NCBI RefSeq assembly: GCF_016862575.1
Contig: NZ_BONF01000009.1
Coordinates: 310,001-374,000 of the forward strand
Length of the DNA stretch: 64,000 bases
Source of the DNA: Catellatospora bangladeshensis
Lineage (GTDB): Bacteria > Actinomycetota > Actinomycetes > Mycobacteriales > Micromonosporaceae
Direction of reading: 5' to 3'
Shown: piece by piece, positions 40,746 through 58,044 of the stretch
Numbering within the stretch: position 1 is the stretch's first letter
How the letters are laid out: every line of letters begins with the position of its first letter
The notes under the pieces: model-generated
The model's database searches: none
What the model was told of the DNA's origin: nothing
The model's input: only the letters and a program-made list of their open reading frames with translations
Made by a program: the position numbers and the translations under genes

Positions 40746-40765
40746 GCCCGGCGCCTCAGCCGGGC
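40746..40765. terminator. Hairpin between SARP and methyltransferase genes
   Basis: GCCCGGC-GCCTCA-GCCGGGC forms a perfect 7-bp stem. It starts next to the SARP stop codon, and its loop contains the stop codon of the methyltransferase, so it probably ends both transcripts. Confidence 0.6.
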
Positions 40766-42774: not shown

Positions 42775-43995
42775 TCATCGACCGGAGAGTTTGGCGGCGT
42801 CCAGGGCGTCGCCGGGCGGCAGGAGGCGGCCGAGCTGCTCCAGCAGGAACGCCTGCCGCTCGCGCAGCCGGTCGCGCTCGGTCTCGTCGTCCAGCAGCTC
42901 GGTCATCGCCTGCAGCACCCGGCGCCGCTCGAACACCCCGACGCTGCGGAAGGTGTCCGGGTACGGGTTGCCGGACAGCACCGGGGTGAGGAACTCGTGC
43001 CAGCCCCACGGGTACACCCGGAACGGGTAGGCCATGACCAGCTCGGGCGCGGCCTCGGCCAGCCAGGCGGGTGCCGAGCCGCTGGCGATCAGCCGCCGGA
43101 TGTCAAGGATCTTGTGGTTCTGCAGCACGAGGCTCGGCACACCGGCGAGCACCGCCTGGGTGAGCGTCACCGACACCGCGTTGGCGCTGACATAGAGGTC
43201 CGCGGCGGTCAGCTGGGCGTGGAACTCCACCGGCGTCAGCGTCGGCACCTGCCGGTACTCGATCTGCGGGGCGACGGGGAACTCCCACGGGTGCGGGCCG
43301 ACGTGGACCACCCGCAGCGGCCGGCCGAGCGCGGCCAGATGGCTGTGGATGATGTTCGGCATCGACCGCATCAGCTGCCCCATGCTGGGCGAGCGGACCA
43401 CGTTGACGTACTCCCAGCGGGAGTTGGTGAGGAACACCGTCGGCGTCCCCGACCGGCGGGGCGAGCGCATCGGCGCCGTCCCGCCGCACACCATCGGGGT
43501 CACGATGACGCCGGGTTCGGCGGGTGCGGGACGGTTCAGCGGGCTGTTGCGGATCAGCAGGTCGCAGCTGTCGAGCAGGCGCGGGAAGTGGGTGCGGTGC
43601 CCGCCGTAGAAGTCGACGACGTACTGCGCGGCCGGGTAGTCGTACTGGTCGAAGCTGGCCAGGGCGACGTCGTAGCGGTCGCGCAGCAGGCTCATGCTCA
43701 GCCCCGACCACGCCGTCGAGTAGTCCAGCGTGAAGCAGTCCGCCGCGACGAGCATGTCCGGGCGGAAGTCCGCCACGAGCGTGTCGAACGCGGCCCGGTT
43801 CCGGGCCGGGTCCTGGCTGGTCAGCGGGTGCACGTCGAGCCCGAGCCCGCGCACGTAGGGCGCGACCGCGGCCATGGTCACGAACAGGACCTTGAACCGG
43901 TCCGGTGGCAGCTGGCGGGCGAAGTCGGCGGCGATGCTCACGTCGCCGTTGGACAGGTGGCCGAGCCCGAGGAACAGCAGGCGCCGCGGGTTCAT
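42775..43995 (-). CDS. GT-B-like glycosyltransferase, paralogue A
   Basis: A 406-residue protein with the two-Rossmann layout of GT-B enzymes: MNPRRLLFLGLGHLSNGDVS at the N-terminus, a link near NSRWEYVN, and a C-terminal lobe with HVGPHPWEFP and SANAVSVTLTQAVLAGVPSLVL, which is like the donor-binding loop of MurG-type enzymes. It is closely related to the protein at 47006-48208 and more distantly to that at 48205-49452. I cannot give a CAZy family, and a non-glycosyl function is possible. It follows the small helical protein gene by 5 bases. Confidence 0.65.
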   Translation of the reverse strand: MNPRRLLFLGLGHLSNGDVSIAADFARQLPPDRFKVLFVTMAAVAPYVRGLGLDVHPLTSQDPARNRAAFDTLVADFRPDMLVAADCFTLDYSTAWSGLSMSLLRDRYDVALASFDQYDYPAAQYVVDFYGGHRTHFPRLLDSCDLLIRNSPLNRPAPAEPGVIVTPMVCGGTAPMRSPRRSGTPTVFLTNSRWEYVNVVRSPSMGQLMRSMPNIIHSHLAALGRPLRVVHVGPHPWEFPVAPQIEYRQVPTLTPVEFHAQLTAADLYVSANAVSVTLTQAVLAGVPSLVLQNHKILDIRRLIASGSAPAWLAEAAPELVMAYPFRVYPWGWHEFLTPVLSGNPYPDTFRSVGVFERRRVLQAMTELLDDETERDRLRERQAFLLEQLGRLLPPGDALDAAKLSGR

Positions 43996-44000
43996 CGCGC

Positions 44001-44684
44001 TCACCACACCGACTGCCGGCTCAGCGCGGCCACGACCGCGGGCTGCTCGCCGTAGAGGACCGCCATCACTTCCCCGATCGCCTCCCGTTCGGGGCCGACG
44101 GCGCCCGCGTGCATGGTGGCCAGCGGCTCGCACAGGACCGCCCCCAGCGCCGGCAGTCCCACCGGCGTGCGCGGGCACGCTGCCAGCACGTCCAGCAGGG
44201 GTGGCCGCCCGTCGGCGGGCGGCGTGCCGGCGAGGTGGTCGACGACGGCGGCCAGCGCGTGGGTGCTGACGAAGTAGGCCCGCGCCGGCAGGCCGCCCTG
44301 GCGCGCCAGGAGCAGCTCCAGGTCGGCCTGGGCCAGGCTCAGCTCCCCCGAGGCCTGCACCGAGTACGCGCCGTAGCTGCTCGGGATCAAGGCGCGCAGC
44401 CGGGCCCGGCTGTAGCGGGCCAGCCAGTTGTCCGGGTCCAGCCGCAGCGCCTGCCCGAGGGCGTCGATCGTGTCGGTGAACCGGGCGTGTGCCTCGAACT
44501 CCACGCCGAGGCTGGGCAGCGCCGCCATCAGCGCGAGGGCGTATCGGGCGGCGGCGCCGGGGTCGGCCGGGTCGGCGCGGCGGGCGTCGGCCAGGCGGGC
44601 CAGCAGCTTGGGCGCCCAGCCCAGCTTGCCGGCCGCGCTGGCCAGCCCGTAGAGCTCGTCGTCGGCGCGGGTGATCAGGTGCAC
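44001..44684 (-). CDS. Small helical protein, paralogue B (radical SAM partner?)
   Basis: A 227-residue mostly helical protein with TPR-like pieces (LRLDPDNWLARYSRARLRAL, about residues 75-95). No family recognised. It aligns with the protein at 49449-50126: both open TRADxELxG and share the D.WLARF/YxR.R..LxP and LPALGAVLC/FPSLGGVLC segments. The GTG at 44684 puts this opening at the N-terminus in both and sits 4 bases after the stop of the radical SAM gene. Each copy directly follows a radical SAM gene, which suggests a dedicated partner, for example substrate presentation. Confidence 0.7.
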   Translation of the reverse strand: MHLITRADDELYGLASAAGKLGWAPKLLARLADARRADPADPGAAARYALALMAALPSLGVEFEAHARFTDTIDALGQALRLDPDNWLARYSRARLRALIPSSYGAYSVQASGELSLAQADLELLLARQGGLPARAYFVSTHALAAVVDHLAGTPPADGRPPLLDVLAACPRTPVGLPALGAVLCEPLATMHAGAVGPEREAIGEVMAVLYGEQPAVVAALSRQSVW

Positions 44685-44688
44685 GGTG

Positions 44689-45597
44689 TCACGCCGTCGC
44701 CGTCGGGGTGACGGGCTGGAACTCGTCCCAGCCGACGAACTCGGCGTACTCCTTGTAGACACCGCCGCAGGAGCCGTTGTGGGCGCAGCCGCCGCACCTC
44801 TCGTCCTTGACCCGGGCGTTGCTGTCCATGTAGTTCTCGTAGTCCTCGAACACGAACTTGCGGTACAGCATCTTGAACTGGTTCTGCTTCCAGTCGATCA
44901 TGTACTGCTCGTAGCCGGGGATGGCGCAGTACGGGAAGCCCTCCAGGGTGACCATCTTGCCGCGCCGCACCGCACGGTCGACGGCCTCGAAGACGTAGGG
45001 CTGGATCTCGTCGTAGCGCGGGGTGACGTCCCAGAAGTTGCGCAGCGCGGTGCCGGAGGTGTGCAGCGCGGACAGGTTCACGTGATCGGCGCCGAGGTCC
45101 AGGCACAGGTCGACGATGTCGGGCACCTCGGTGAAGTTGTCCTTGCACACCACCGAGTTGGTGCGGACCAGCGCGCCGAGTTCCTTCACGTTGCGGATGC
45201 CGGTGACGGCCTGCTGGAACGAGCCGAGCGCCTTGGCGATGCGGTCCTGGGTCAGCGCGCGGGCCCCGTGCAGGGACACGATGAACAGGCTGACGTTCTT
45301 GCTGACCACCGTCTTGGCGTACTCCATCCGGGCCAGCTTGCGGCCGTTGGTCTGCAGCAGCACGGTCGGGTAGCCCAGCCCCTGGATCTCGTCGAGGATC
45401 TCCAGGAAGTCCTTGCGGATGGTGGCCTCGCCGCCGTGGATGTTGACGGCCTCGAATCCCTTGTCCGCGTTCTCCTGCAGGAATCGCGAGACCCGCTTGC
45501 GGGAGATGGAGTCGTCCTTGACGAACGGGGAGTCGACGATGCAGAAGTTGCACTTGCTGTTGCAGATGTCGGTGAGGTGCACGCTCAGCGCCTTCAC
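44689..45597 (-). CDS. Radical SAM enzyme, paralogue B
   Basis: A 302-residue radical SAM protein. The cluster-binding motif CNSKCNFC (residues 12-19) is followed by NIHGGEATIRKDF (the GGE SAM-binding motif). At the C-terminus CGGCAHNGSCGG has the Cys-x2-Cys-x5-Cys spacing of a SPASM or twitch auxiliary cluster, with another Cys in GFPYC. The enzyme would cleave SAM to a 5'-deoxyadenosyl radical. It aligns without gaps over nearly its full length with the protein at 50126-51052. The GTG start overlaps the stop of the 471-residue protein gene (GTGA). Confidence 0.93.
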   Translation of the reverse strand: MKALSVHLTDICNSKCNFCIVDSPFVKDDSISRKRVSRFLQENADKGFEAVNIHGGEATIRKDFLEILDEIQGLGYPTVLLQTNGRKLARMEYAKTVVSKNVSLFIVSLHGARALTQDRIAKALGSFQQAVTGIRNVKELGALVRTNSVVCKDNFTEVPDIVDLCLDLGADHVNLSALHTSGTALRNFWDVTPRYDEIQPYVFEAVDRAVRRGKMVTLEGFPYCAIPGYEQYMIDWKQNQFKMLYRKFVFEDYENYMDSNARVKDERCGGCAHNGSCGGVYKEYAEFVGWDEFQPVTPTATA

Positions 45598-47009
45598 GGC
45601 TGTGCCTCCGATTCGTGGCCGGTGGCGCTGGGCACGGGCACCGGCTGCGCCAGCCGGTCCAGCAGCGCCAGAAGATCGGTGAGGTCGACCCGGACGACCC
45701 TGATGTGGTCGGTCATGATGTCGCGGCCGGGCTGGTCGCCGGCGAGCAGCCGGTCGGCGCCGTCGGCGGCGAACTGGCCGAACGCGAGCAGCCCTTCCAG
45801 ACTGCGGCGGTACTCGGGCAGGCGGCTCCAGACGGCGCCGTCGCCGTCTGCTGCGGCGCGCAGCCCCGCCTGCAGCGCCTTGACCTGGCGGTAGGTGCCG
45901 GGAAGGTCGGCGCCGACGACGCTGCGGAACCCCATCAGGGTGAGGTCGGCCATGCCCTGCGGGAGATGGGCGAGGCTGGAGACCTGCCAGGTCAGGTGAT
46001 CGGCCACGCGGCCGGTCAGCCGGAGTGCCTCGGCCAGCTGGGCGCCGTCCGCCGTCGGGCGGGGTGCTGGTTCTGGTTCCGGCCGGGCGGGTGCGATGGC
46101 CGCGGCGGTCGGCGCCGGGAGCTGGGTGCCCGCGAACATCCGTACCGTGCGCCGCTTCTGCACCGGCACCCGCTGCCCGTCCGCTCCGGTGACGGTGGCC
46201 ACGATCATCTCGGTCATCTCGGCGAACAGCAGGTCCCCGGTCTCGGCGTCGGCCTGCAGCGTGATCCAGTAGGACGAGCGGCCGCGCTGGCGCACCGGGC
46301 CGGACCTGACGTCCAGGACGCAGTCGAGGCAGGCCATCGAATACACCACGCTCGGGCGGCCGCCGTAGGTGCCGTGGCCCAGGTGCCGGGCGGTCGCGTG
46401 GGCGTTGCGGAACACGGCGGTCGCACCGGGGTCGGAGAACCGCAGCTCCGCCCAGCTGCCCGAGATCCCGTCCAGCTCGGCCCAGCTGCCGGGGGTGCGC
46501 AGCGCCGGGGTGGTCGTCAGGTGCGTGCACAGCATCTCGAACGTGACGACGTCCCAGCTGAGCATGAGCAGCAGGTCGACGGCGGGAGCCTTGGGCAGAC
46601 CCGGATAGCTGATGTCCATCGGCGACAGCGGGGTGCCGGGCGGCGGGTCCTGCGGGCGGTCCACCCCGGCGACGTCGGTGTGCATCAGCACCGAGGTGAA
46701 GCTCTGCCCCCGCGCGAACGTCCACTCGCGCTGCTCGCCCTCGCCGTCGGGGCTTCCGGTGCCGGCGTCTACCCGGTCCCACTGGTAGCGCACCGGGACG
46801 AGCGAGCCCACGCTGCCGCCGGTGAGGGTGCGGGTGAGGCTCGCGGTGACGTCCTGCCACTTGTACGGGGTGCCGCGCGGGGTCAGGAAGTCGTTGCGCA
46901 TCGTCGCCCGGAACGGCTGCACGGCGTCCGGCGCGACCCGGCGGCGGTCGGGCGCCGGCCGCCCGGCCAGGGCCGCGACGGCTTCGTGCAGGGGCGGCTG
47001 TCCGGTCAT
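45594..47009 (-). CDS. Unknown 471-residue cluster protein
   Basis: No family recognised. Residues 25-300 are strand-rich and contain several Trp (YKWQDVTASL, YQWDRVDAG, WAELDGISGSWAELRF) and a pair of Cys (MACLDCVLD, about 225); a Pro/Ala-rich linker near 310-325 leads to a helical C-terminal domain (LTGRVADHLTWQVSSL to the end). It has no signal peptide or membrane segment. The start overlaps the stop of the upstream GT-B-like gene (ATGA) and its stop overlaps the start of radical SAM paralogue B, so it belongs to the pathway. It is the best candidate in the window for an unstudied enzyme or adaptor. Confidence 0.8.
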   Translation of the reverse strand: MTGQPPLHEAVAALAGRPAPDRRRVAPDAVQPFRATMRNDFLTPRGTPYKWQDVTASLTRTLTGGSVGSLVPVRYQWDRVDAGTGSPDGEGEQREWTFARGQSFTSVLMHTDVAGVDRPQDPPPGTPLSPMDISYPGLPKAPAVDLLLMLSWDVVTFEMLCTHLTTTPALRTPGSWAELDGISGSWAELRFSDPGATAVFRNAHATARHLGHGTYGGRPSVVYSMACLDCVLDVRSGPVRQRGRSSYWITLQADAETGDLLFAEMTEMIVATVTGADGQRVPVQKRRTVRMFAGTQLPAPTAAAIAPARPEPEPAPRPTADGAQLAEALRLTGRVADHLTWQVSSLAHLPQGMADLTLMGFRSVVGADLPGTYRQVKALQAGLRAAADGDGAVWSRLPEYRRSLEGLLAFGQFAADGADRLLAGDQPGRDIMTDHIRVVRVDLTDLLALLDRLAQPVPVPSATGHESEAQP

Positions 47010-48208
47010 CGGGCCACCGCCGCGGCGAGCGTCTCGGCGAACGCCTCGGTGGCCGAGGGCAGCGCGGCGAGCCGGTCACGGTAGTCCTGCTGCCGTTCGA
47101 GCAGGTCGGGACGCCCGTCGAGCAGCCCGGTCAGGGCCTGCCCCACGGCCGCCCGGTCGAAGAGCGGGGCCTGGGCGAAGCAGCCGAAGTAGGGGTTGCC
47201 CGACACCAGCGGCGTCAGCAGCTCGTGCCAGCCCAGCGGTGCCACCCGGAACGGGTACGCCGCCGTCAGCTGCGGCGCGCAGGCGGCCGTCCACTCGGGC
47301 AGCTCGGTCAAGGTCCGGTCGTTGTGCAGCAGCAGGGACGGCACCCCGGCCAGCACGGCGCGGGCGAGGGTGGACGACAGGGCGTTGGCGGTCAGGAAGA
47401 CGTCGGCGGAGGTCAGCCGGGCGTGGAACATCGGGTACGGCAAGCGGCTGAAGTGCTGGTAGTCCAGGTGGTCGGCGGTCGGGAACCGCCAGCCGCGCGG
47501 GCCGACGTGGATGATGCGCAGCGGGCGGCCCACCGCGGCCAGCAGGCTGTGCAGCAGCCGCGGGAGCGCGTCGGCCAGCTGCTGGGCGGCGGGCGTGGTG
47601 CCGGTGTACTCCCACCGGGAGTTCACCAGGAACACGACCGGCCGGTCGGCCCTGGGCGCGTCCTCGTCGCTCACCGGGCGCAGGCCGCCGTACTGCAGCC
47701 CGCCCAGGTGCAGCGGGGCCACCACGACACCCGGCGGCCCCGGCTCCGGCCGGTGCGGCGGCCCGGTGCGGATCAGCACGTCGCAGTCGTCGAGCAGCGG
47801 CGGGAACTGCGTACGCGGCCCGCCGTAGACGTCGACTGCGTATCCGGTGTCCGGCCAGCCGAGCCGGTCCAGGCTGCCCACCGGCCGTCCGTAGCGCTCG
47901 CGCAGGACGTCGAGGCCCAGCCCGGTCCAGCCCCGGGACTGGTGCACGGCGAAGGCGTCGGCCGCGATGAGCAGGTCGGGCGCGAAGCCGGCGACGATCC
48001 GGTCGAGCATGGCCAGGTTCTGCGCCGGTGAGCCGGCGGTCAGCGCGAGCGTCGGCATGCCGAGGTCGTGCAGCTGCGCCACGGAGTCGGCGGCGGCCAC
48101 GAACCCGACCTGGAACTTCTTGCGCGGCAGTGCGCGGGCCATGTCGGCGGCCAGGCTGGCGTCGCCTTTGGACAGGGTGCTCGGGGCGAGGAACAGCAGT
48201 CTTCTCAT
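47006..48208 (-). CDS. GT-B-like glycosyltransferase, paralogue B
   Basis: A 400-residue protein closely related to that at 42775-43995. Matching blocks include SKGDASLAADMARALP, VVFLVNSRWEYTG, IIHVGPRGWRFP, LTANALSSTLARAVLAGVPSL and YPFRVAPLGWHELLTPL. Probable GT-B fold, donor and acceptor unknown. Both ends overlap neighbouring genes (ATGA each side), placing it firmly within the operon. It lies in series with the more distant paralogue at 48205, as if by tandem duplication. Confidence 0.65.
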   Translation of the reverse strand: MRRLLFLAPSTLSKGDASLAADMARALPRKKFQVGFVAAADSVAQLHDLGMPTLALTAGSPAQNLAMLDRIVAGFAPDLLIAADAFAVHQSRGWTGLGLDVLRERYGRPVGSLDRLGWPDTGYAVDVYGGPRTQFPPLLDDCDVLIRTGPPHRPEPGPPGVVVAPLHLGGLQYGGLRPVSDEDAPRADRPVVFLVNSRWEYTGTTPAAQQLADALPRLLHSLLAAVGRPLRIIHVGPRGWRFPTADHLDYQHFSRLPYPMFHARLTSADVFLTANALSSTLARAVLAGVPSLLLHNDRTLTELPEWTAACAPQLTAAYPFRVAPLGWHELLTPLVSGNPYFGCFAQAPLFDRAAVGQALTGLLDGRPDLLERQQDYRDRLAALPSATEAFAETLAAAVAR

Positions 48209-49452
48209 GCGCTCACCTGATGCAGGATGGTGTCGACCTCGGGCAGTTTCCGCAGCGCTTCCAGGTACGTCTCGCGGGCCTCGGCCAGGCGCTCCCGCTG
48301 CGGCCCGTCCTCCAGCAGCGGCAGGATCGCCGCCAGCGAGCCGTCCTCGTCGAACGTCTCCACGTGCTCCACGACCGCGCTGAACGGGTTGCCGTCCAGC
48401 AGCGAGCGCAGGAAGTGGTACCAGCCGACGGGGAACATCCGGCACGGGTACAGGTAGTCGATGCCGTCGACGACGCCGCGGGCGTGCTCGGTCAGCTCCG
48501 GCGGGGCGGGGATCTCCCAGCGCAGCCTGCCGCGGCGCTTGTTGAGCGAGTTCATCAGGACGACCGACGGGATGCCGCGCAGGGCGAGCCGGTGCAGGCT
48601 CACCGAGACGATGTTGTTGGAGATGTGCAGGTCGACCGCCTGGATCAGGCGGCGGAACCGCTCCGGTTCGACCTGGCCGAGCGGGTGGAACCCAGTCGGG
48701 GTGCGGTCGTGGAACACCAGCTGCGGGCCTACCGCGAGCACGTCGGCGTGCGGCAGGATCCGCTCCAGCAGCCGTTCGAGCATCCGGTGGCTGGCGTCGA
48801 CGTACGCGGTCACCCGGGGGTAGGCGGCGTGCATGCGCTGCCAGGTGGCGCCGGTGACCATCACCACCGGCCGCCCGCCGGTCAGGCCGAGCTCCGCGCG
48901 CACGTCGTCCCGCTGCGCCGTCGGCACGTCGGCGGTCTCCTCCAGCAGCGGGTACGCGAAGACGTCCGGCCCGGTCTCGTCCAGCGGGTTGTTCAGCGGG
49001 CACGGGCGCAGCCGGAACGACAGCCCGTCGAGGGTGATGTCGCCCTCGTACTTGGCCTTGAACCCGTAGGTGTCCAGCCAGGCCCCGTCCCGGCCCCAGG
49101 AGAAGTCGTCGAAGGTGCCCACCGGGCAGTCGAACGCGGCCAGGTCGGCCCGGCCCAGCCCGTAGTGCCGGTCGCAGAAGTCGAAGTTCATGAAGTCGGC
49201 CAGCACGACCAGCGCGGGCTGGTGCACGTGCGCGATGTCGCGCAGCTGGATGCGGTTGATCTTCCCGGCACCGGGGATCATCACCTGGTACGCCAGCCCG
49301 CTGTCGGCCATCAGCCGCCGGTGGGTGGGCGGGATCAGGAACAGCGGCGTGAACCCGGTCCCGGCCATCCGCCGGGCGAACTCCGTGGCGATGGCCAGCT
49401 CCCCGAACGCCCAGAAGCTGGTGACGATGAACAGGACGGTCCGCTGCCTCAT
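48205..49452 (-). CDS. GT-B-like glycosyltransferase, paralogue C
   Basis: A 415-residue member of the same group, more diverged. It keeps the first Rossmann strand (RTVLFIVTSFWAFGELAIATEFARRM), the C-terminal donor-loop pattern (DLHISNNIVSVSLHRLALRGIPSVVLMNS) and the ending with MFPVGWYHFLRSLLDGNPF, equivalent to the GWHEFLTPVLSGNPY block of its paralogues. The NSRWEY segment is replaced by MVTGATWQRM. Start and stop overlap neighbours by ATGA. Divergence from the other two suggests a different acceptor or sugar. Confidence 0.6.
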   Translation of the reverse strand: MRQRTVLFIVTSFWAFGELAIATEFARRMAGTGFTPLFLIPPTHRRLMADSGLAYQVMIPGAGKINRIQLRDIAHVHQPALVVLADFMNFDFCDRHYGLGRADLAAFDCPVGTFDDFSWGRDGAWLDTYGFKAKYEGDITLDGLSFRLRPCPLNNPLDETGPDVFAYPLLEETADVPTAQRDDVRAELGLTGGRPVVMVTGATWQRMHAAYPRVTAYVDASHRMLERLLERILPHADVLAVGPQLVFHDRTPTGFHPLGQVEPERFRRLIQAVDLHISNNIVSVSLHRLALRGIPSVVLMNSLNKRRGRLRWEIPAPPELTEHARGVVDGIDYLYPCRMFPVGWYHFLRSLLDGNPFSAVVEHVETFDEDGSLAAILPLLEDGPQRERLAEARETYLEALRKLPEVDTILHQVSA

Positions 49453-50126
49453 CGGGCCGCTCCGGCGGTAATCACACGCCGGACGGTGGGCTGGTCCGGG
49501 AACAGCGTGCCCATCAGCCGCCCGAGCGTCTCGCGGGCGGGCGCGTCGGGCTCGCCGAAGTACCAGACGAACGGCGCGCACAGCACCCCGCCGAGGGAGG
49601 GGAACGCGATCGGCGACGCGGGCTGCGCGGCGGCCGCCTCGATCAGGCCGGCCGCGGTGGCCTCGTCGCGGTCGCCCTCCCATTCGAGTCGGGCCGCCAG
49701 CAGGTACGCGCAGGCGAACCAGGGCTGCCACGCCGTCTCGGCCTGCCGACTGATCAGCTCCGCCACGTCCGCGGCGGCACGGGTGCGCTCGGCGGCGATG
49801 TAGACCTTGTGCTCGTCGGTCTCGACCGGCAGCAGGGTGCGGGTGTGGATCCGCAGGAACCGGGCCAGCCAGTGTCCGGGCTCCTGGTAGAGCAGGTCGC
49901 TGAGCGTCTCGACGACCTCCGTGTAGTCGAACTCGTGGTGGTCGTCGCGGCCGGACACCAGCATCGCCACCATGGACAGGGCGTACGGGAACCCGGACAG
50001 CGGGTCGTCCCACTCCTTCTCGTACCGCTTGCGCAGCTGCGCGACGATCGGCCGGGCCCGGCCGAGGCGGGCGGCCATCAGCGCGGTGCCGAACAGTTCC
50101 TCGTCCGCGCGGGTGACGGGCAGCAT
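49449..50126 (-). CDS. Small helical protein, paralogue A
   Basis: A 225-residue helical protein related to the one at 44001-44684 (common opening TRADEELFG; shared GHWLARFLRIHTRTLLP-type and FPSLGGVLCAPF segments). No catalytic motif recognised. The ATG shares one base with the stop of radical SAM paralogue A (TGATG), exactly the relation its paralogue has to the other radical SAM gene. The repeated pairing argues that each helical protein serves its own radical SAM enzyme. Confidence 0.72.
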   Translation of the reverse strand: MLPVTRADEELFGTALMAARLGRARPIVAQLRKRYEKEWDDPLSGFPYALSMVAMLVSGRDDHHEFDYTEVVETLSDLLYQEPGHWLARFLRIHTRTLLPVETDEHKVYIAAERTRAAADVAELISRQAETAWQPWFACAYLLAARLEWEGDRDEATAAGLIEAAAAQPASPIAFPSLGGVLCAPFVWYFGEPDAPARETLGRLMGTLFPDQPTVRRVITAGAAR

Positions 50127-51052
50127 CACGACACCGGCGCCGGGTTGTCGGCGGGCCGCTGCGTGACCGGGTGGAACTCGTCCCAGCCGATCATCTCCGC
50201 GTACTCCTTGTAGACCCCGCCGCAGACGTCGGTGAACACGCAACCGCCGCAGCGTGCGTCCTTGACCCGGGTGAAGTCGTCCATGTGCCCCTCGTAGTCG
50301 TCCATGACGAAGCTGCGGTACAGCATCTTGAACTTGTTGTCTTCCCAGTCGATCTGGAACCGCTCGTAGCCGGGCACGCCGCAGTAGGGGAAGCCCTCCA
50401 GCCGCAGTGCCACCCCGCGGGCGACGGCCCGGTCGCACGCTTCCGCGACGTAGGGCCGGATGTCGTCGTAGCGCGGGGTGACGTCCCAGAAGTTGCGCAG
50501 CGCCGTGCCCGAGGTGTGCAGCGCCGAGATGTTGACGACGTCGGCGCCGAGGTCCATGCACAGGTCGACGATCTCGGGCAGCTCGGTGTAGTTGTCCTTG
50601 CACACCACCGAGTTGGTCCGGACCGACGCCCCGAGCTGCTTGACGTTGCGGATGCCCTGGACCGCCTGGTCGAAGGAGCCCGGCGCCAGGCTGATGCCGT
50701 CCTGGGTCGCCGCCGTGGCCCCGTGCAGGGACACGATGAACAGGCTCACGCCCTTGCCCACCACCGTCTCGGCGTACGCCATCCGGGCCAGCTTGCGGGC
50801 GTTGGTCTGCAGGAAGACGGTCGGATAGCCCAGTTCCCGGATCTCGTCGAGGATCTCCAGGAAGTCCTTGCGGATGGTGGCCTCGCCGCCGTGCAGGTTG
50901 ACCGCCTCGTAGTCCTGGCCGGCGTGCTCGTGCAGGAACCGCGAGATCCGCCGGCGCATGACCGTGTCCTGCTTCATGTACGGGGAGTCGACGATGCAGA
51001 ACGTGCACTTGCTGTTGCACACGTCGGTCAGGTGGATGCTGAGTCCCTTCAT
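50126..51052 (-). CDS. Radical SAM enzyme, paralogue A
   Basis: A 308-residue radical SAM protein with CNSKCTFC (residues 12-19), NLHGGEATIRKDF, and a C-terminal CGGCVFTDVCGG auxiliary-cluster-like motif. Long identical blocks shared with paralogue B include HTSGTALRNFWDVTPRYD and RTNSVVCKDN. It is the gene directly after the precursor-like peptide gene (29 bases), the classical arrangement for a peptide-modifying radical SAM enzyme. It has a strong ribosome-binding site (GGAGG). The reaction is unknown; thioether, C-C or C-O cross-linking and epimerisation are all possible. Confidence 0.93.
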   Translation of the reverse strand: MKGLSIHLTDVCNSKCTFCIVDSPYMKQDTVMRRRISRFLHEHAGQDYEAVNLHGGEATIRKDFLEILDEIRELGYPTVFLQTNARKLARMAYAETVVGKGVSLFIVSLHGATAATQDGISLAPGSFDQAVQGIRNVKQLGASVRTNSVVCKDNYTELPEIVDLCMDLGADVVNISALHTSGTALRNFWDVTPRYDDIRPYVAEACDRAVARGVALRLEGFPYCGVPGYERFQIDWEDNKFKMLYRSFVMDDYEGHMDDFTRVKDARCGGCVFTDVCGGVYKEYAEMIGWDEFHPVTQRPADNPAPVS

Positions 51053-51081: not shown

Positions 51082-51390
51082 TCAGTCGTCGAGGTCTTCG
51101 TCGTCGTAGATCTCGTAGCCCTGCTGGACCATCGCGGCGTCCTCGGGCGTGTAGACCGCCGAGTCGACGGCGAAGAACTCCTCCAGGTTCTCCGGCGTCA
51201 GCTTGGCCAGGTCCTCCTCGTCGAGGCTGCGCAGCAGCAGCAGCTGGACCTCGCTGAGGTCGTAGCCGGCCAGCGCGGCGTCGGGATCGTCGAGCAGCAG
51301 GCGGCCGAACTCCGGGTCGGCGACGGCCCGTTCCAGGACGTCCTTGACCTGGCTCGGCTCAGCCTGGCTCGCGGTGGTTTCGGCAGTCAC
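51082..51390 (-). CDS. RiPP-precursor-like peptide (NHLP/Os1348/Franean-type leader)
   Basis: A 102-residue acidic peptide. Residues 14-72 match the leader pattern of NHLP-clan/Os1348 and Franean1_4349-type RiPP precursors as I know it: a helix with VLERAVADPEFGRLLLDDP, then ALAGYDLSE and LRSLDEEDLAKL. After FFAVDS comes a 25-30 residue tail with three tyrosines (AVYTPEDAAMVQQGYEIYDD) ending in Asp/Glu. No double-Gly cleavage site. The GTG start has AGGAG 8 bases upstream. It lies between the B12-class radical SAM gene (28 bases) and radical SAM paralogue A (29 bases), the widest gaps in this part of the operon, as expected for a gene needing its own translation rate. Confidence 0.75.
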   Translation of the reverse strand: MTAETTASQAEPSQVKDVLERAVADPEFGRLLLDDPDAALAGYDLSEVQLLLLRSLDEEDLAKLTPENLEEFFAVDSAVYTPEDAAMVQQGYEIYDDEDLDD

Positions 51391-51418
51391 GTGTGCACTC
51401 CTGTCCGGTGGTGGATCG

Positions 51419-53191
51419 TCAGGCCATCGACATGGTTTCGTTGTTGAACCGGGCCGGGGTGCGGCCCGCGCGGTCCTGGCGCATGCTCAGCACCCGCCAG
51501 GCGTCGCTGAAATCGGTGCTCTGGATCGCGTTGAGCTTGGCGATCTTCGGCACGATCACGTCCGCGAGCTGTTCGGCGCTGCGGCCGTCGATCTCGTCGA
51601 ACTCGTAGACGCGGAAGTTCTGCGGCTTGTAGGAGAACTCCAGGTCCTCGGCCAGCCAGCGGTAGTTGGCGTCGAGCAGCCGCTGGTAGGCGTCGGGGAA
51701 CTTGCGCAGCGTCATCCCGTACGCCTCGGGTTTCGCGCCCATCAGCGACTTGGGCGCCACGAAGTACCGGTTGACGTTGAAGTAGTTGATGTTCGCGGCG
51801 TTGCGTTCCAGGAAGTCGGTCGTCTCGGCGAAGGTGTCCTCGTCCTCGTGCGGCAGGCCGGTGATGATCTCCAGGTCGGCCCAGATGCCGACCTCCTTGC
51901 ACCAGCCCAGCACCCGCTCGGCCTCGGCGAGCTTGACCCGCTTGTCGATGATCTTGAGCATCTTGGTGCTCGCCGTCTCCAGGCCGAACGTCAGCTTGCG
52001 GCAGCCGGACTCGGCCATCAGCGCGAGACGCTCGTAGGTGAGGCTGTTGAACCGGGCGCAGTCGGACCAGTGCAGCTCGACGCCGTTGAGGACGACCCGG
52101 CTGGCGAACTCCTCGACGAAGCCGTTGACCAGGTTGAAGTAGTTGTTGAACAGGTAGAAGTACGGCGTCTGGTACTTGCTGGACAGCCCCGCCATGTCCT
52201 CGACGATGTCGTCGACGGTGGCGTGCACGAGCTTGACCCGCTCCAGGCTCTCGGTGCAGAACGCGCAGTTGTACGGGCAGTTGTAGTTGAACACGTACGG
52301 CATCACCAGCTTCCCGGAGACGCCCTGGCCGGCCTGCTGCGCGTTGGTCTCGTTGGCCAGCCAGCTCAGGTACGCCGGGAACTGGTAGAGCTGCATCCGG
52401 TTCCACATCTCGTCGGCCTCCTGCTTACGCGGGCTCGCCGTGGGCCGGTCGCGGACGAAGTTGTGGTAGTCGTCCAGGCGCAGCCCGTCGAAGTCGGGGG
52501 CCAGGATGCGGTGCGCGGCGTCGGGCGAGCGCAGGACGGTGTCGCCCAGCAGCCGGGCGACCCCGGGCGAGGGGGCGGGGCGGGCCATCGGCAGCTGCGT
52601 CCGCTCCCGGGCCAGCTTGCCCACGAGGTCGACGAAGACGTCCTCGCCCGGGCCGGTCACGGCCGCGTCGAAGTGCGTGATGACCGCGGTCCACCAGCTG
52701 TGGAACGCGTCGTGGAACTGCATCAGGTAGTCCAGGTTGTTGCCGCCCAGCACGATCGGCTTGCCGTAGTGCCGCTTGATGTGGGCGCCGATCACGACGG
52801 CCGACTGCATCTCCAGGAACGAGAAGTCGCCACCGGCGGAGATGCCGACCACCTGGGCCGCCTCGATGTCCTTGCCGGCCAGCAGGCGGTCGGCGAAGGA
52901 GTCCAGGAAGTCGTTGCGGGCGCCGCCCACGTAGTCCAGCACGGCCCGCTCGTCGTAGAACGGGCGCAGGTCGGCCTTGGTGAACTCGCCGGCCCGCCAC
53001 ATCCGCCACAGGTCGGAGTTGAGATCGTGCAGGTCCACGTCGCAGCCGGAATCGCGCAGGCTGGCGGTCACGATGCCGGTCCCGAAGGGCGGCAGGTTCA
53101 TGCGGGTGAACATCGGCTGTTCGCCCGGTGCGACGAGGAACAGCACCCGGGTGGTCGGCTTGCGTGCCGGGGCGATGGCCATGGTAGTCAC
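51419..53191 (-). CDS. B12-binding-type radical SAM protein
   Basis: A 590-residue class B radical SAM protein. Residues 15-190 resemble a B12-binding Rossmann domain (TRVLFLVAPGEQP, VVGISAGGDFSF, KPIVLGGNN), without the DxHxxG histidine motif, as is frequent in this class. The radical SAM core starts at CPYNCAFC (about residue 297) and includes KLTFGLETAS and EIITGLPHEDEDTF. Relatives methylate unactivated carbons or rearrange peptides. The GTG start overlaps the stop of the glycosyltransferase gene upstream (GTGA); an in-frame ATG at 53182 is possible. It is the gene directly before the precursor-like gene. Confidence 0.9.
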   Translation of the reverse strand: MTTMAIAPARKPTTRVLFLVAPGEQPMFTRMNLPPFGTGIVTASLRDSGCDVDLHDLNSDLWRMWRAGEFTKADLRPFYDERAVLDYVGGARNDFLDSFADRLLAGKDIEAAQVVGISAGGDFSFLEMQSAVVIGAHIKRHYGKPIVLGGNNLDYLMQFHDAFHSWWTAVITHFDAAVTGPGEDVFVDLVGKLARERTQLPMARPAPSPGVARLLGDTVLRSPDAAHRILAPDFDGLRLDDYHNFVRDRPTASPRKQEADEMWNRMQLYQFPAYLSWLANETNAQQAGQGVSGKLVMPYVFNYNCPYNCAFCTESLERVKLVHATVDDIVEDMAGLSSKYQTPYFYLFNNYFNLVNGFVEEFASRVVLNGVELHWSDCARFNSLTYERLALMAESGCRKLTFGLETASTKMLKIIDKRVKLAEAERVLGWCKEVGIWADLEIITGLPHEDEDTFAETTDFLERNAANINYFNVNRYFVAPKSLMGAKPEAYGMTLRKFPDAYQRLLDANYRWLAEDLEFSYKPQNFRVYEFDEIDGRSAEQLADVIVPKIAKLNAIQSTDFSDAWRVLSMRQDRAGRTPARFNNETMSMA

Positions 53192-54318
53192 CCTTCTGAG
53201 GGCTGCAGCGAGGCGGTGATCAGGTCAGCGGCGGTCGCCAGCGGGGCCATCGCGCGCAGTTCGCCGGCGACCTCCTGGGCGGCGTTGCGGTAGCGGGGCT
53301 CCTCGACGACCGCGCGTATGGCGTCGCGCAGCTCCGTGGCGGTCACCGTGTCGGCGTCCAGCGCGATGCCCAGGCCCAGCTCGGCGCAGCGCGTGGCGAT
53401 GTAGGGCTGGTCGGCGAAGATCGGGACGAGGACCAGCGGCAGCCCCCGGACCAGCGCCCGGCAGACCGTGCCCCAGCCGGCGTGCGTGACGACGGCCGAG
53501 GCCCGGTCGAACAGCTCGTCGTGGGGGGTGCGCCCGAGCAGGCGTACGTTGTCCGGGATAGGCCCGGTCGGCGCCAGGCCCGCGCCGCCGTGGGTGACCA
53601 GGCCGTCGACGGGCAGCCCGGCCAGCGCCTGGACAGCGGCGGCCACGTACCGGTCCTGGACCAGCGCCCGCACGCCTAGGTTGATCGGCGCGTTCGTGCT
53701 GGCGCTGACGACCACGACCGGCCGCCCACCGGGCCGGGTCCGCGGCGTGGGCACCTCGGTGAAGGGGCCGACCAGGGCGACCTCGTCCGGCAGCCGGTGG
53801 GCCCCGGCGAAGCGCGGGGTCGTCGGGATCAGGTGCAGCTGCGGCGACGTGCGCCCGAGCAGGCTCACGTCGTCGTCGGGCAGGCCGAGCGCGGCCAGCA
53901 CCCGGTGCGGGGCGAAGCTGTCGACGGCGTGCGGGGGCAGGAAGGTGCGGTAGGAGTCCAGCGCCGGGACCGGGCTGAACGACAGCGACACCCACGGCAG
54001 GTCGATCCGCTGCGCGGCCAGCGCTCCGCCCGCGGCCATCACGTCGGCCACGATCAGCTCCGCGCCGCAGTCGTACGCGAGATCCACGATGTCGCGGACC
54101 ATCGCCTCGAGGTCGCCGAGGAAGATGTGCCGGAACAGCGTGGCGCTGTCCGCGGAGTACAGGTGCGGGGGAATGGGCGCGTCGGGGCACCAGCGGCTCG
54201 CGGTCTCCTCGCTGAACGTGGTGACCTCGTGCCCGGCCGCACGCAGCTGCCCGGCGAGCGCCGCCATCGGCTCGGCGTGGCCGGGCGGGTGGAAGGGGAC
54301 GAGCAGGATACTGGTCAC
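53188..54318 (-). CDS. GT1-type glycosyltransferase (antibiotic-tailoring type)
   Basis: A 376-residue GT-B enzyme of the macrolide/UDP-glycosyltransferase type. The N-terminus (ILLVPFHPPGHAEPMAALAGQL) and the C-terminal nucleotide-binding region (VVTHAGWGTVCRALVRGLPLVLVPIFADQPYIA, about residues 275-310) are diagnostic for family GT1, which transfers sugars from NDP-sugars to small molecules. The GTG start overlaps the stop of the sugar nucleotidyltransferase gene, and the pair is a natural donor-synthesis and transfer unit. Confidence 0.92.
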   Translation of the reverse strand: MTSILLVPFHPPGHAEPMAALAGQLRAAGHEVTTFSEETASRWCPDAPIPPHLYSADSATLFRHIFLGDLEAMVRDIVDLAYDCGAELIVADVMAAGGALAAQRIDLPWVSLSFSPVPALDSYRTFLPPHAVDSFAPHRVLAALGLPDDDVSLLGRTSPQLHLIPTTPRFAGAHRLPDEVALVGPFTEVPTPRTRPGGRPVVVVSASTNAPINLGVRALVQDRYVAAAVQALAGLPVDGLVTHGGAGLAPTGPIPDNVRLLGRTPHDELFDRASAVVTHAGWGTVCRALVRGLPLVLVPIFADQPYIATRCAELGLGIALDADTVTATELRDAIRAVVEEPRYRNAAQEVAGELRAMAPLATAADLITASLQPSEG

Positions 54319-55097
54319 GGCTGCCGCCGGGCCAGTACGCCGCCGGGGGCTTCGAGGGCTTCGCGGGCCCGCAGGACACCGGCCGGGGTGCCGATGTCGT
54401 GGAACTCGCCGTCGGCGAAGGTCAGCGCGTGTACGCGCAACCCCGCGGTCATGGCGGCGACGAAGATGTCGCTGAGCAGGAGCTCCGGACCGGGCGGCGC
54501 ATCGGCCACGCACGCGTGCAGCAGCTCGGTGAAGACCGGCGACCACGCGGCGATGCCCCACGTGTTGTCGGCCGGGGGGTGCTCGGGCTTGTCCACGATG
54601 GCCAGCACCCGGTACGAGCCGGGCTCGACAACGACCGGCGCGAGCGACTGCGGCGTGGCCGTCGGATAGACCCCGAGGCTGAGGTCCGCGCCTGTGCCGT
54701 CGTGGAAGTCCAGCAGCCTGGCGAAGCCGTCGTCCGGGGTGATGATCGTGTCCGGCATACCCATGCACACCGTCCGGCCAGCCAGGAACGGAGTGGCCAG
54801 GTCGAGCGCGTGCGGCAGCCCGCGCGCCACCTCCTGGCACACGTACGCCAGGTCCATGCCCAGGTAGCTGCCCGAGCCGAGGTAGCGCAGCAGTTCGGCC
54901 TTGGCCGGCGACAGCACGACGAAGGCACGCCCGACGCCGCCGCCGCGCATCGCGGTCAGGACGTGTTCGATGGCCGCCTTCGGCAGCACCCGGCCGCCGA
55001 CGTCGTGGTAGCCGACCTGGATCAGCTCCTTGGGCGCGCGGTACGGCGCGAGGCGCGTCCCGGCGCCTGCCGCAGGCACCACACCGAACCGACCCAC
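54315..55097 (-). CDS. Sugar-1-phosphate nucleotidyltransferase
   Basis: A 260-residue nucleotidyltransferase that would activate a sugar phosphate to an NDP-sugar. The signature GVVPAAGAGTRLAPYRAPKELI is at the N-terminus, with later VDKPEHPP, WGIAAWSP and FHDIGTPAG matching GlmU/RmlA-type enzymes. Nothing else for deoxysugar synthesis is nearby, so the sugar may be a common one. The GTG at 55097 is preferred because it puts the signature at the usual place; GTG codons at 55106 and 55112 are also in frame. A LacI-type box ends just upstream of the 55112 codon. First gene of the 14-gene operon. Confidence 0.88.
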   Translation of the reverse strand: MGRFGVVPAAGAGTRLAPYRAPKELIQVGYHDVGGRVLPKAAIEHVLTAMRGGGVGRAFVVLSPAKAELLRYLGSGSYLGMDLAYVCQEVARGLPHALDLATPFLAGRTVCMGMPDTIITPDDGFARLLDFHDGTGADLSLGVYPTATPQSLAPVVVEPGSYRVLAIVDKPEHPPADNTWGIAAWSPVFTELLHACVADAPPGPELLLSDIFVAAMTAGLRVHALTFADGEFHDIGTPAGVLRAREALEAPGGVLARRQP

Positions 55098-55113
55098 CCG
55101 AAACACCCCCACG

Positions 55114-55127
55114 TGGTAGCGCTTCCA
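55114..55127. promoter_or_regulatory. CebR-like operator in the leader of the biosynthetic operon
   Basis: TGGTAGCGCTTCCA, identical to 13486-13499 before the GH16 gene. It lies between the candidate -10 (55149-55144, minus strand) and the first start codon, where a bound repressor would block elongation. Confidence 0.65.
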
Positions 55128-55143
55128 TGTACGCAGTTGTGCG

Positions 55144-55188
55144 AATGTATCGATGGTTCGTTGTGTTAATGTTGTGGATATGTTGTGG
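55144..55188 (-). promoter_or_regulatory. SARP-type direct repeats and -10 box of the minus-strand operon
   Basis: Three heptamers GTTGTGT, GTTGTGG and GTTGTGG (plus-strand 55160-55166, 55171-55177, 55182-55188) start exactly 11 bp apart. On the minus strand the last repeat ends 10 bases before TACATT (55149-55144), close to the usual SARP-box to -10 distance. A fourth copy (GTTGTGC, 55136-55142) is off register by 24 bp. Confidence 0.75.
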
Positions 55189-55212
55189 TCGCGGGGCCAC
55201 TGACATTTACGT

Positions 55213-56074: not shown

Positions 56075-56983
56075 ATGGACGCCAGTGCCGCGATCGCGGT
56101 CACCGACCTGCGGAAGACCTACGGCACCACCACCGCCCTCGACGGGGTCTCGTTCGAGGTCGGCCAGGGCGAGTTCTTCGGGCTGCTCGGCCCCAACGGC
56201 GCGGGTAAGACCACCACCCTGGAGATCGTGGAAGGGCTGCGGCGCCCCGACTCCGGCCAGGCCCTGATGTTCGGTGCGCCATCCTGGCCGCCCAACCCGG
56301 ACCTGATGCGGCGCATCGGCGTGCAGTCGCAGACGCCGGCGTTCTTCGAGCGGCTGACGGCCGCCGAGCAGATCCACGCGTTCGCGAAGCTCTACCGGGT
56401 CCCCGCCGTGCGTGCCGACGAGATGCTGGCCGCCGTCGGCCTGTCCGACAAGGCCCGGACCCGGGTCGAGCAGCTGTCGGGCGGGCAGGCCCAGCGCCTG
56501 GCGATCGCCTGCGCGCTCGTCCACGATCCGCAGCTGGTGTTCCTCGACGAGCCCACCGCCGGACTCGACCCCCAGGCCCGGCGCAACCTCTGGGACCTGC
56601 TCCGGGACATCAACGCCGCCGGCCGGACCGTCGTGCTGACCACGCACTACATGGACGAGGCCGAGGCGCTCTGCCACCGGGTCGCCATCATCGACCACGG
56701 ACGCATCCTCGAATGCGGACCGCCCGAGACGCTGATCCAGAAGGCCGACGCGGTCACCCGCGTCATCGCTCAGGCGGCCCTGGTCGACGCCGGTGAACTG
56801 CGCCGGCGGTTCCCCGAGGCGACCGTCACCGAGGATGACACCCGGATCGTCATCGCCAGCCCCGATCCCGCGCCGGTGCTCGCCGAGCTGGCAGCCCGCG
56901 GCGCGCTGCGCGACCTGGTGGTCAAGGGCGCCACCCTGGAGGACGCCTACCTGACGCTGACCGGGCGGGAGTATCGCGCATGA
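56075..56983 (+). CDS. ABC-2 exporter ATP-binding protein (DrrA-like)
   Basis: A 302-residue ATPase. Walker A is GPNGAGKTTT, signature LSGGQAQRLAIA, Walker B LVFLDEPTAGLD, H-loop TTHYMDEA. The C-terminal 70 residues form the extra domain seen in DrrA/CcmA-type antibiotic exporters (LGRE-like end reads LTGREYRA). The permease gene overlaps its stop by ATGA. Likely exports the cluster product or provides self-protection. Confidence 0.94.
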   Translation: MDASAAIAVTDLRKTYGTTTALDGVSFEVGQGEFFGLLGPNGAGKTTTLEIVEGLRRPDSGQALMFGAPSWPPNPDLMRRIGVQSQTPAFFERLTAAEQIHAFAKLYRVPAVRADEMLAAVGLSDKARTRVEQLSGGQAQRLAIACALVHDPQLVFLDEPTAGLDPQARRNLWDLLRDINAAGRTVVLTTHYMDEAEALCHRVAIIDHGRILECGPPETLIQKADAVTRVIAQAALVDAGELRRRFPEATVTEDDTRIVIASPDPAPVLAELAARGALRDLVVKGATLEDAYLTLTGREYRA

Positions 56984-58044
56984 ACGGCCTCGGAACCCTG
57001 TCGCAGATCCTGCTGCGCGGCTACCTGCGCGACAAGGCGTCGCTCTTCTTCACCCTGGCCTTCCCGCTGCTGTTCCTGGTCCTACTCGGCGGGCTGTTCG
57101 GCGGCGCCGACACCGCGCCGCAGGTGAAGGTCGCCGTCGTCGGCCCGGTCGACGTGCTGGACGCGCTGACCGACGGGCAGCGGGCCCAGATCGGCCAGGT
57201 GCTCGCCATCACCCGGACCACCGACCTGGCCGCGGCGCTGGACCAGGTGCGCTCCGGCGACGAGACGGCCGCCATCGTCCAGCAGGGCACGCAGGTGCAG
57301 GTGCACTACTCGGCCGCCGACCCGTCCTCGGCCGCCACCGTGCGCAGCGTCGTGGAGTCGCTGGTGCAGGGGGCCAACCTGGCCGCCACCGGGCAGCCGC
57401 CCCGGTTCACCGTCTCGGTCACCACCGTCCAGGACGCGTCCGTCAAGCAGATCCAGTACCTCACGCCTGGCATCCTCGGGTGGGCCATCGCCACCGGCGC
57501 CACCTTCGGCGCCGCGTCGACCCTGGTCGTCTGGCGCCAGCGCAGGCTCACCCAGCGGCTGGCGCTCAGCCCCGTCGGCGTCCCGGCGGTTGTCGGCGCG
57601 CGGATCCTGGTCAGCCTCGGCCTGGCACTGGCGCAGACGCTGCTGTTCCTCGGCATCGCGGCCGCCTTCTTCGATCTTCAGCTCACCGGGGCGTGGTGGC
57701 TGGCGATCCCGCTCGTCCTCGCCTCGACCCTGGCGTTCCTGTCGGTCGGGCTGCTCGCCGGGGCGACCACGAGATCCGTCGAAGCCGGCAACGCCGTCTG
57801 CAACATCGTCGTCATCCCGATGGCGTTCCTGTCCGGGTCGTTCGTTCCGCTGAGCTTCGCGCCCGACTGGCTGCAGGCCGCCTCGCTGGTGCTGCCCCTG
57901 CGCCAGTTCAACGAGGGCGTGCTCGACGTGCTCAGCCGCGGCGGGGGCATCGGCGACGTCGTGGTGCCCCTGGCCGTGCTGCTCGGCTTCGCCGCCGTGC
58001 TCACCACGGTCGCCGTCCGCCTGATCCGCCGCGAAGCCGACTGA
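56980..58044 (+). CDS. ABC-2 type permease (DrrB-like)
   Basis: A 354-residue membrane protein with one N-terminal helix (about residues 22-42), an extracytoplasmic domain of about 125 residues, then five helices between 165 and 345. This is the 1+5 layout of ABC-2 exporters with a large first loop. QILLRGYLRDKASLFFTLAFPLLF at the start and NIVVIPMAFLSGSFVPLSFAPDWL near 275 are typical. It partners with the ATPase encoded upstream. Confidence 0.92.
   Translation: MNGLGTLSQILLRGYLRDKASLFFTLAFPLLFLVLLGGLFGGADTAPQVKVAVVGPVDVLDALTDGQRAQIGQVLAITRTTDLAAALDQVRSGDETAAIVQQGTQVQVHYSAADPSSAATVRSVVESLVQGANLAATGQPPRFTVSVTTVQDASVKQIQYLTPGILGWAIATGATFGAASTLVVWRQRRLTQRLALSPVGVPAVVGARILVSLGLALAQTLLFLGIAAAFFDLQLTGAWWLAIPLVLASTLAFLSVGLLAGATTRSVEAGNAVCNIVVIPMAFLSGSFVPLSFAPDWLQAASLVLPLRQFNEGVLDVLSRGGGIGDVVVPLAVLLGFAAVLTTVAVRLIRREAD

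Follow-up and report, generated by a model that had tools for sequence, protein, structure and literature searches.

The cluster and its small protein

The window analyzed here, a stretch of 64,000 nucleotides from the Catellatospora bangladeshensis genome, contains a cluster of radical SAM, helical TPR-like and predicted glycosyltransferase genes, among which lies a gene for a protein of 102 aa (Table 1). The ORF encoding this protein (51390..51082, minus strand) starts with GTG, is preceded by a ribosome-binding-like sequence, and is flanked on the same strand by the B12-type radical SAM gene, which ends at 51419, and a SPASM-like radical SAM gene, which starts at 51052. The gene is the sole full-length copy in its own genome and is confirmed as a real gene. 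Among the proteins scanned near it, no peptidase or RRE protein was recognized. A defence system was considered and rejected, PADLOC having given generic radical SAM matches only.

Table 1. Genes and sequence features of the cluster, in window coordinates
Feature	Position	Strand	Basis
LCM-type methyltransferase, not found in related loci	40756..41574	-	Comparison at E <= 1e-6
Cytochrome P450, not found in related loci	41568..42761	-	Comparison at E <= 1e-6
Third DUF6365 protein	42775..44004	-	Locus comparison
TPR-like protein 2	44001..44690	-	Locus comparison
Radical SAM protein 2, 73% identical to radical SAM protein 1	44689..45612	-	NCBIfam profiles
Conserved uncharacterised protein X, 471 aa	45594..47009	-	Without Pfam or NCBIfam family; locus comparison
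Second DUF6365 protein	47006..48208	-	Pfam
DUF6365 protein, predicted GT-B glycosyltransferase	48205..49449	-	Pfam, predicted fold
Helical TPR-like protein 1, 226 aa	49449..50129	-	Weak matches, mostly TPR proteins
Radical SAM protein 1, 308 aa, HxsC/PqqE/BlsE-like, below all family cut-offs	50126..51052	-	NCBIfam/Pfam profiles, solved relatives
102-aa precursor-like protein, Os1348-type NHLP	51082..51390	-	ORF calling, NCBIfam profile, alignment
Variable acidic tail, residues 83-102, follower-like	51085..51144	-	29% mean pairwise identity; acidic in 18/18
Invariant AVYTP, residues 78-82, proposed modified segment	51145..51159	-	18/18 sequences; codons vary
Folded leader, residues 12-76, predicted helical	51163..51357	-	AlphaFold2; top structural match Os1348 6lk7
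LXXXXL motif L64-TPEN-L69 (KLTPENL)	51184..51201	-	Alignment; resembles functional NLTEEQL of proteusin SrpE (PMC10858898)
AGGAG, ribosome-binding-like, upstream of GTG start	51398..51402	-	Direct sequence reading
B12-type radical SAM protein, 590 aa	51419..53191	-	NCBIfam/Pfam
Macrolide-type glycosyltransferase	53188..54366	-	NCBIfam/Pfam
Sugar-1-phosphate nucleotidyltransferase-like protein	54315..55205	-	NCBIfam/Pfam
ABC ATPase and ABC-2 permease, probable exporter	56075..58044	+	Locus comparison, profiles

The cluster contains two radical SAM/TPR-like gene pairs (44001-45612 and 49449-51052), and two such pairs are also present in three of the related loci (L036, L039, L041). Next to the exporter genes, a protein without a Pfam match (58060-58914) reads like a GT-A glycosyltransferase, and a homologue is found near the related L038 cluster. 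Close to the opposite end of the cluster lies a divergently placed gene for a questin oxidase-like protein (38742-39788), which is adjoined by a gene for a SARP-type regulator (40008-40745).

Leader family and predicted fold

Residues 14-71 of the 102-aa protein match the NF038399 profile (Os1348 family NHLP clan) with an E-value of 6.4e-13 and 48.6 bits, above the cut-off of 40, whereas the score with the Pfam Frankia_peptide profile (Franean1_4349, PF14407) is 32.3 bits, below the cut-off of 48. The first-pass annotation, made from the sequence alone, had described the leader as following an NHLP/Os1348/Franean-type pattern; of these profiles, that of Os1348 is the one whose cut-off is reached. 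TIGR03793, the NHLP leader peptide family, is not matched by the 102-aa protein at E <= 0.1. Among the homologues described below, NF038399 scores 44.4 bits with the L042 protein (above the cut-off) and 28.7 bits with the L050 protein (below it), and TIGR03793 gives 21 and 25.7 bits, respectively, both below its cut-off of 50.9.

The AlphaFold2 model of the protein has helices up to residue 76, where pLDDT averages about 76-89 per block, and residues 77-97 at pLDDT < 50, that is, predicted to be disordered; with a mean pLDDT of 68.5 from an alignment of 13 sequences, the fold is only fairly sure. Given that residues 12-76 are folded in the model and residues 77-97 are left disordered, the AVYTP segment is positioned directly beyond the folded leader. 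The top Foldseek match of the model is Os1348 (6lk7), at an E-value of only 0.45. The VIA comparison likewise places 6lk7 first, with a middling Z of 6.3 and 60 of 66 residues aligned, the next row having 4.0. The proteusin NMR structure 8tb1 is also among the structural matches, and the RiPP folds in the 50 best VIA rows are Os1348, the proteusin NMR structure and nitrile hydratase, with no others among them.

The last part of the folded region contains an LXXXXL motif, in which L64 is invariant and position 69 is Leu, Ile or Met in all 18 homologues. In proteusins, the LXXXXL helix at positions -12 to -7 (NLTEEQL in SrpE) binds the modifying enzyme (PMC10858898). Counting from KLTPENL by analogy with the proteusins would place the boundary at 75|76, and counted from a core start so inferred, the motif lies 7-12 residues ahead of the core. 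In 16 of the 18 homologues, the -2/-1 positions (74-75), where proteusins carry GG, hold SA, AA or AV, all of them small residues.

An invariant motif behind the leader

We aligned 18 homologues from Actinobacteria and Clostridia, of which one is the window protein, 13 are from genomes located through the radical SAM gene, and four (L006, L090-L092) were found with queries that include AVYTP. Conservation along the alignment falls into three parts. Mean pairwise identity is 51% in the leader (residues 14-63) and 70% in residues 64-75, rises to 90% in residues 76-82, with AVYTP (78-82) at 100%, and drops to 29% in the tail (83-102). All four codons are used for each of Ala, Val, Thr and Pro of the motif and both codons for Tyr, which indicates that the amino acids, not the DNA, are conserved. 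The agreement of the 18 homologues over the leader and AVYTP exceeds what chance would give; when the 14 invariant positions were shuffled over the 89 positions, a run of at least five occurred in 80 of 20000 shuffles.

These observations support the view of the first-pass annotation that the protein behaves as a precursor or substrate, for which a conserved leader followed by a variable or strictly patterned tail had been named as support and uniform conservation as contrary evidence: the leader is of the Os1348 type, the predicted fold ends around residue 76, a strictly patterned segment follows, and conservation is not uniform. The same annotation had correctly pointed out that the last 24 residues (79-102) contain three tyrosines (Tyr80, Tyr92 and Tyr95) and end in an acidic stretch, and that a double-glycine site is missing; indeed, GG occurs nowhere in the protein. 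The view that the Tyr-rich tail itself is the core is not supported by the alignment. Tyr80 is invariant (18 of 18), in contrast to the columns of Tyr92 and Tyr95, where Tyr is found in eight and six of the 18 homologues, respectively; in nine of them, no Tyr at all follows AVYTP. Behind the Val79-Tyr80 pair come 22 residues in the window protein, and none of the 18 homologues has fewer than 18 there.

In precursors of ribosomally synthesized and post-translationally modified peptides (RiPPs), the leader is usually conserved and the core variable. In the present protein, conservation peaks in five residues within the part predicted to be disordered, which are constant across the actinobacterial and clostridial sequences compared. 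Such a constant motif is the signature expected when the product is fixed, PQQ and mycofactocin being examples, and it singles out Tyr80.

Distribution of the precursor

In the family to which the window belongs, 46 of the 200 genomes match the protein at E <= 0.001, with full-length matches in five only (G000, G051, G055, G062 and G075); the remaining 41 were set aside as part-leader matches in other or longer frames (28 loci read). Many genomes of the family (L009-L033, e.g., L012, L019 and L031) code for proteins of about 200-500 aa in which an Os1348-like N-terminus precedes a low-complexity linker and, in most cases, DADGDGxWD repeats, calcium-binding in appearance; these are probably not RiPP precursors in the usual sense. 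The alignment search matched three of 397 genomes in the order, the only full-length protein being the window's own, and one of 296 genomes in the phylum. Given the five full-length cases in the family and the few matches in the order and phylum, the peptide is rare in Actinobacteria. In Clostridia, precursors were found in four of 391 genomes of the class and in four of 11 genomes of the family.

A scan of genome contigs with the neighboring radical SAM protein alone yielded 38 loci. The 16 best (L036-L051) belong to Micromonospora, Rhizohabitans and Virgisporangium, to several Clostridia, to two Acidobacteria and to one Chloroflexi bacterium. In the remaining 22 (L052-L073), the radical SAM proteins are distant, and no match to DUF6365, the TPR-like protein, protein X or the precursor was obtained at E <= 0.001. 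A motif-free leader model (residues 14-63) detected NHLP-like peptides in all 17 loci (the window and L036-L051), the match in L047 being weak (E 0.017), and 14 of these loci have the AVYTP motif. The alignment of 18 leaves out L005 (from the window's genus and 98% identical), L089 (almost the same as L042), L007 and L008 (identical to L038 and L039), L074-L083 (second copies of loci already included), and L047, L049, L051 and L096, whose peptides are without AVYTP; L040 is represented by its complete copy L084. No plasmid relatives were found at E <= 0.01 and no viral relatives of the radical SAM protein were found.

A conserved set of neighboring genes

Radical SAM and DUF6365 genes are present in all 16 related loci (L036-L051), and the TPR-like protein and protein X in 13 of them, the exceptions being L047, L049 and L051, which are short contigs. 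Matches to window proteins at E <= 1e-6 were obtained for the ABC ATPase in at least 13 of the 16 loci, the nucleotidyltransferase in at least 12 (with a weaker match in L039), the B12-type radical SAM protein in at least 10 and the macrolide-type glycosyltransferase in at least four, all of these being lower bounds given that the flanks end at 10 kb. The gene directly after the precursor is a radical SAM or TPR-like gene in 17 of the 18 loci of the alignment set (the exception is L045), and four more regions (L097-L100) show the same gene set around AVYTP precursors. Thus the first-pass annotation, which had linked the peptide to the enzymes around it, is supported well beyond the window: the precursor adjoins radical SAM and glycosyltransferase genes also in distant phyla. 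Its suggestion of cross-linking by a P450 fared differently. At E <= 1e-6, neither the P450 nor the LCM methyltransferase has a homologue within the 10-kb flanks of the 16 related loci; with a P450 in the window only among 17 loci, this enzyme is ruled out as part of the shared system.

In two loci, DUF6365 and protein X share one open frame of about 725 aa (L043:14899-17076 and L044:14995-17178), an apparent fusion which suggests that protein X works together with the glycosyltransferase. The clostridial clusters (L042-L048 and L040) carry several extra SPASM-type radical SAM genes besides the HxsC-like one; in addition, L042 has a pyruvyl transferase, L041 and L045 have a class III aminotransferase, and L045 has a methyltransferase.

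DUF6365, a predicted glycosyltransferase family

The model of DUF6365, built from an alignment of 21 sequences (A4), has a pLDDT of 89.8 and matches 352 PDB chains at E <= 0.001. The best matches are the elaiophylin glycosyltransferase, GtfD and CalG3, all natural-product glycosyltransferases, and the model thus assigns DUF6365 to the GT-B fold. Sugar transfer is the likely activity predicted from this model; UDP-GlcNAc 2-epimerases, which have the same GT-B fold, are also in the match list. Sequence comparison of DUF6365 with the macrolide-type glycosyltransferase of the window gave a probability of 1.5% and so no support for a relationship. Our search of open-access papers found none on DUF6365; the family now gains a predicted GT-B fold and a genetic context.

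Comparison with known systems

Os1348 from Pseudomonas sp. Os17 (NF038399; PDB 6lk7) resembles the window protein in its leader family, which is matched above the cut-off, and in the arrangement of a small precursor followed by modifying genes; it also ranks first among the structural matches, at the middling scores given above. Unlike the window protein, it has 85 aa and is encoded beside acetyltransferase and HEXXH genes, according to PMC7726476, and it is not among the AVYTP homologues collected; the words radical SAM and glycosyl do not occur in that paper. The proteusins and other NHLP RiPPs (TIGR03793; SrpE, MprE7) share a long folded leader, an LXXXXL helix and a disordered core after it, as described in PMC10858898. 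They differ in that the window protein lacks a double glycine and falls outside TIGR03793, and in that its putative core is invariant, in contrast to the diverse proteusin core, and has a long acidic tail behind it.

The mycofactocin system (MftA-F) is alike in outline, with a radical SAM maturase, Val-Tyr in the precursor, and glycosylation; it shows that a Val-Tyr can indeed be acted on by a radical SAM enzyme and then be oligoglycosylated (PMC7491314). However, Val-Tyr is C-terminal there and internal here, the window radical SAM protein scores 65.7 bits against the MftC cut-off of 265, and no MftB/D/E-like gene was recognized among the proteins scanned. In the case of PQQ, PqqE is among the solved relatives of the window radical SAM protein, but the score is 61.6 bits against the PqqE cut-off of 381.35, and no PqqD- or PqqC-like gene was recognized among the proteins scanned. 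PqqA has an internal conserved Tyr with residues behind it. The best NCBIfam matches of the window radical SAM proteins are HxsC and HxsC4, maturases of the His-Xaa-Ser system, but with 92.6 bits against a cut-off of 267.9 and 137.1 against 500, respectively, and the window precursor has no His-Xaa-Ser repeat. By analogy, the window system appears to follow a logic like that of mycofactocin or PQQ, without membership in either.

Relatives with other peptide ends

Four loci (L047, L049, L051 and L096) retain the radical SAM and DUF6365 genes beside NHLP-like peptides with ends other than the AVYTP type; peptides with such other Tyr-containing ends accompany radical SAM relatives in Acidobacteria and Chloroflexi. 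The ends are CYYFG in L047, NYYGFKL in L049, SYY in L051, and FEYE, FEYE and QYPAPRARANGN in L096, which has three peptides. The six peptides differ in sequence, and each has a Tyr within its last 15 residues; the numbers are small, and the NF038399 scores are below the cut-off. Judged by their sequences, these peptides support the notion that the target of the enzymes is the disordered end of NHLP proteins, and that Tyr is important.

Proposed pathway and alternatives

We propose, with somewhat better than even confidence, that a conserved, unnamed pathway of radical SAM enzymes and glycosyltransferases uses the 102-aa protein as its ribosomal precursor and modifies it at AVYTP, around Tyr80. 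Under this model, the Os1348-type leader (residues about 12-63) and the LXXXXL helix (64-69) would dock the enzymes, the modified segment would be AVYTP, centred on Tyr80 just beyond the fold, and the acidic tail would be a follower that aids recognition and is not part of the product. In the order that we think likely, the precursor would first be bound by its TPR-like partner and by the HxsC-like radical SAM enzyme; radical chemistry would then change Val79, Tyr80 or Thr81, and the B12-type radical SAM enzyme may add a methyl group; the GT-B enzymes (DUF6365 and the macrolide-type glycosyltransferase) would transfer to the product sugars that the nucleotidyltransferase has activated; and finally, a putative protease would free the product, to be exported by the ABC-2 transporter. 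The leader clan is already known; the new elements would be an internal core without variation, an acidic follower and the accompanying enzymes.

In the chief rival, AVYTP serves to dock the TPR-like protein or the radical SAM enzyme onto an adaptor that itself stays unmodified, the true substrate being a sugar or a small molecule. The motif tracks the TPR-like gene, being present in 14 of 14 loci with this gene and in none of the three without it (L047, L049, L051), which fits TPR docking equally well. Some TPR domains are known to bind acidic C-terminal ends, sugar-processing genes are numerous, and the nucleoside-sugar enzyme BlsE ranks first among the solved relatives of the radical SAM protein. 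Against this, the four loci with other peptide ends keep the radical SAM and DUF6365 genes while the ends of their NHLP peptides differ, and one has two near-identical copies, as expected of substrates; moreover, wherever members of the Os1348 and proteusin families have been studied, they are substrates (PMC7726476, PMC10858898). On balance, we regard an adaptor as unlikely, albeit a serious contender.

An ordinary peptide product, as envisaged in the first-pass annotation, with the whole of residues 76-102 including the acidic Tyr tail cut off, modified and exported, appears improbable: the boundary at 75|76 set by the LXXXXL register and the QGYE-x-YD pattern kept in the tails of four close actinobacterial relatives (window, L006, L036, L037) favor it, but the tail is poorly conserved overall, half of the homologues lack Tyr there, and no protease was recognized among the proteins scanned. 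We assign a similarly low likelihood to a peptide-primed glycan, an oligosaccharide built by DUF6365 on Tyr80 and exported in bound or released form, with the radical SAM enzymes editing sugars. The ubiquity of DUF6365 genes in the related loci, the nucleotidyltransferase, the ABC-2 type permease and the polysaccharide pyruvyl transferase in L042 and L049 would agree with such a glycan, but in its fold DUF6365 comes closest to glycosyltransferases of natural products rather than to those that form polymers, and no polymerase or flippase was recognized. Finally, a C-terminal carrier comparable to the LysW and PEARL scaffolds is disfavored by the lack of conservation of the C-terminal residue.

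Returning to the precursor reading, it can be extended to a tentative picture, possible rather than probable in our estimate, of a horizontally spread system that makes one conserved glycosylated metabolite from the internal Ala-Val-Tyr-Thr-Pro of a folded NHLP protein. Such a system would follow a PQQ/mycofactocin-like logic, with a constant small core, a disposable scaffold and a TPR-like partner replacing the RRE, and DUF6365 would be a new family of glycosyltransferases acting on a ribosomal peptide. The precursor reading itself already offers a candidate substrate for several orphan radical SAM families. Our search of the open-access literature, with subscription papers mostly outside its scope, found no paper on the AVYTP system.

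Two of the loci with other peptide ends show additional features. In the Acidobacterium locus (L096:6693-7694), the three NHLP-like peptides are encoded in a row, two of them nearly identical, beside the DUF6365 and radical SAM genes. The NHLP-like peptide of L047 (L047:543-1094) has a twin-arginine-like signal in front (weak TAT matches), as if a folded, modified protein were exported.
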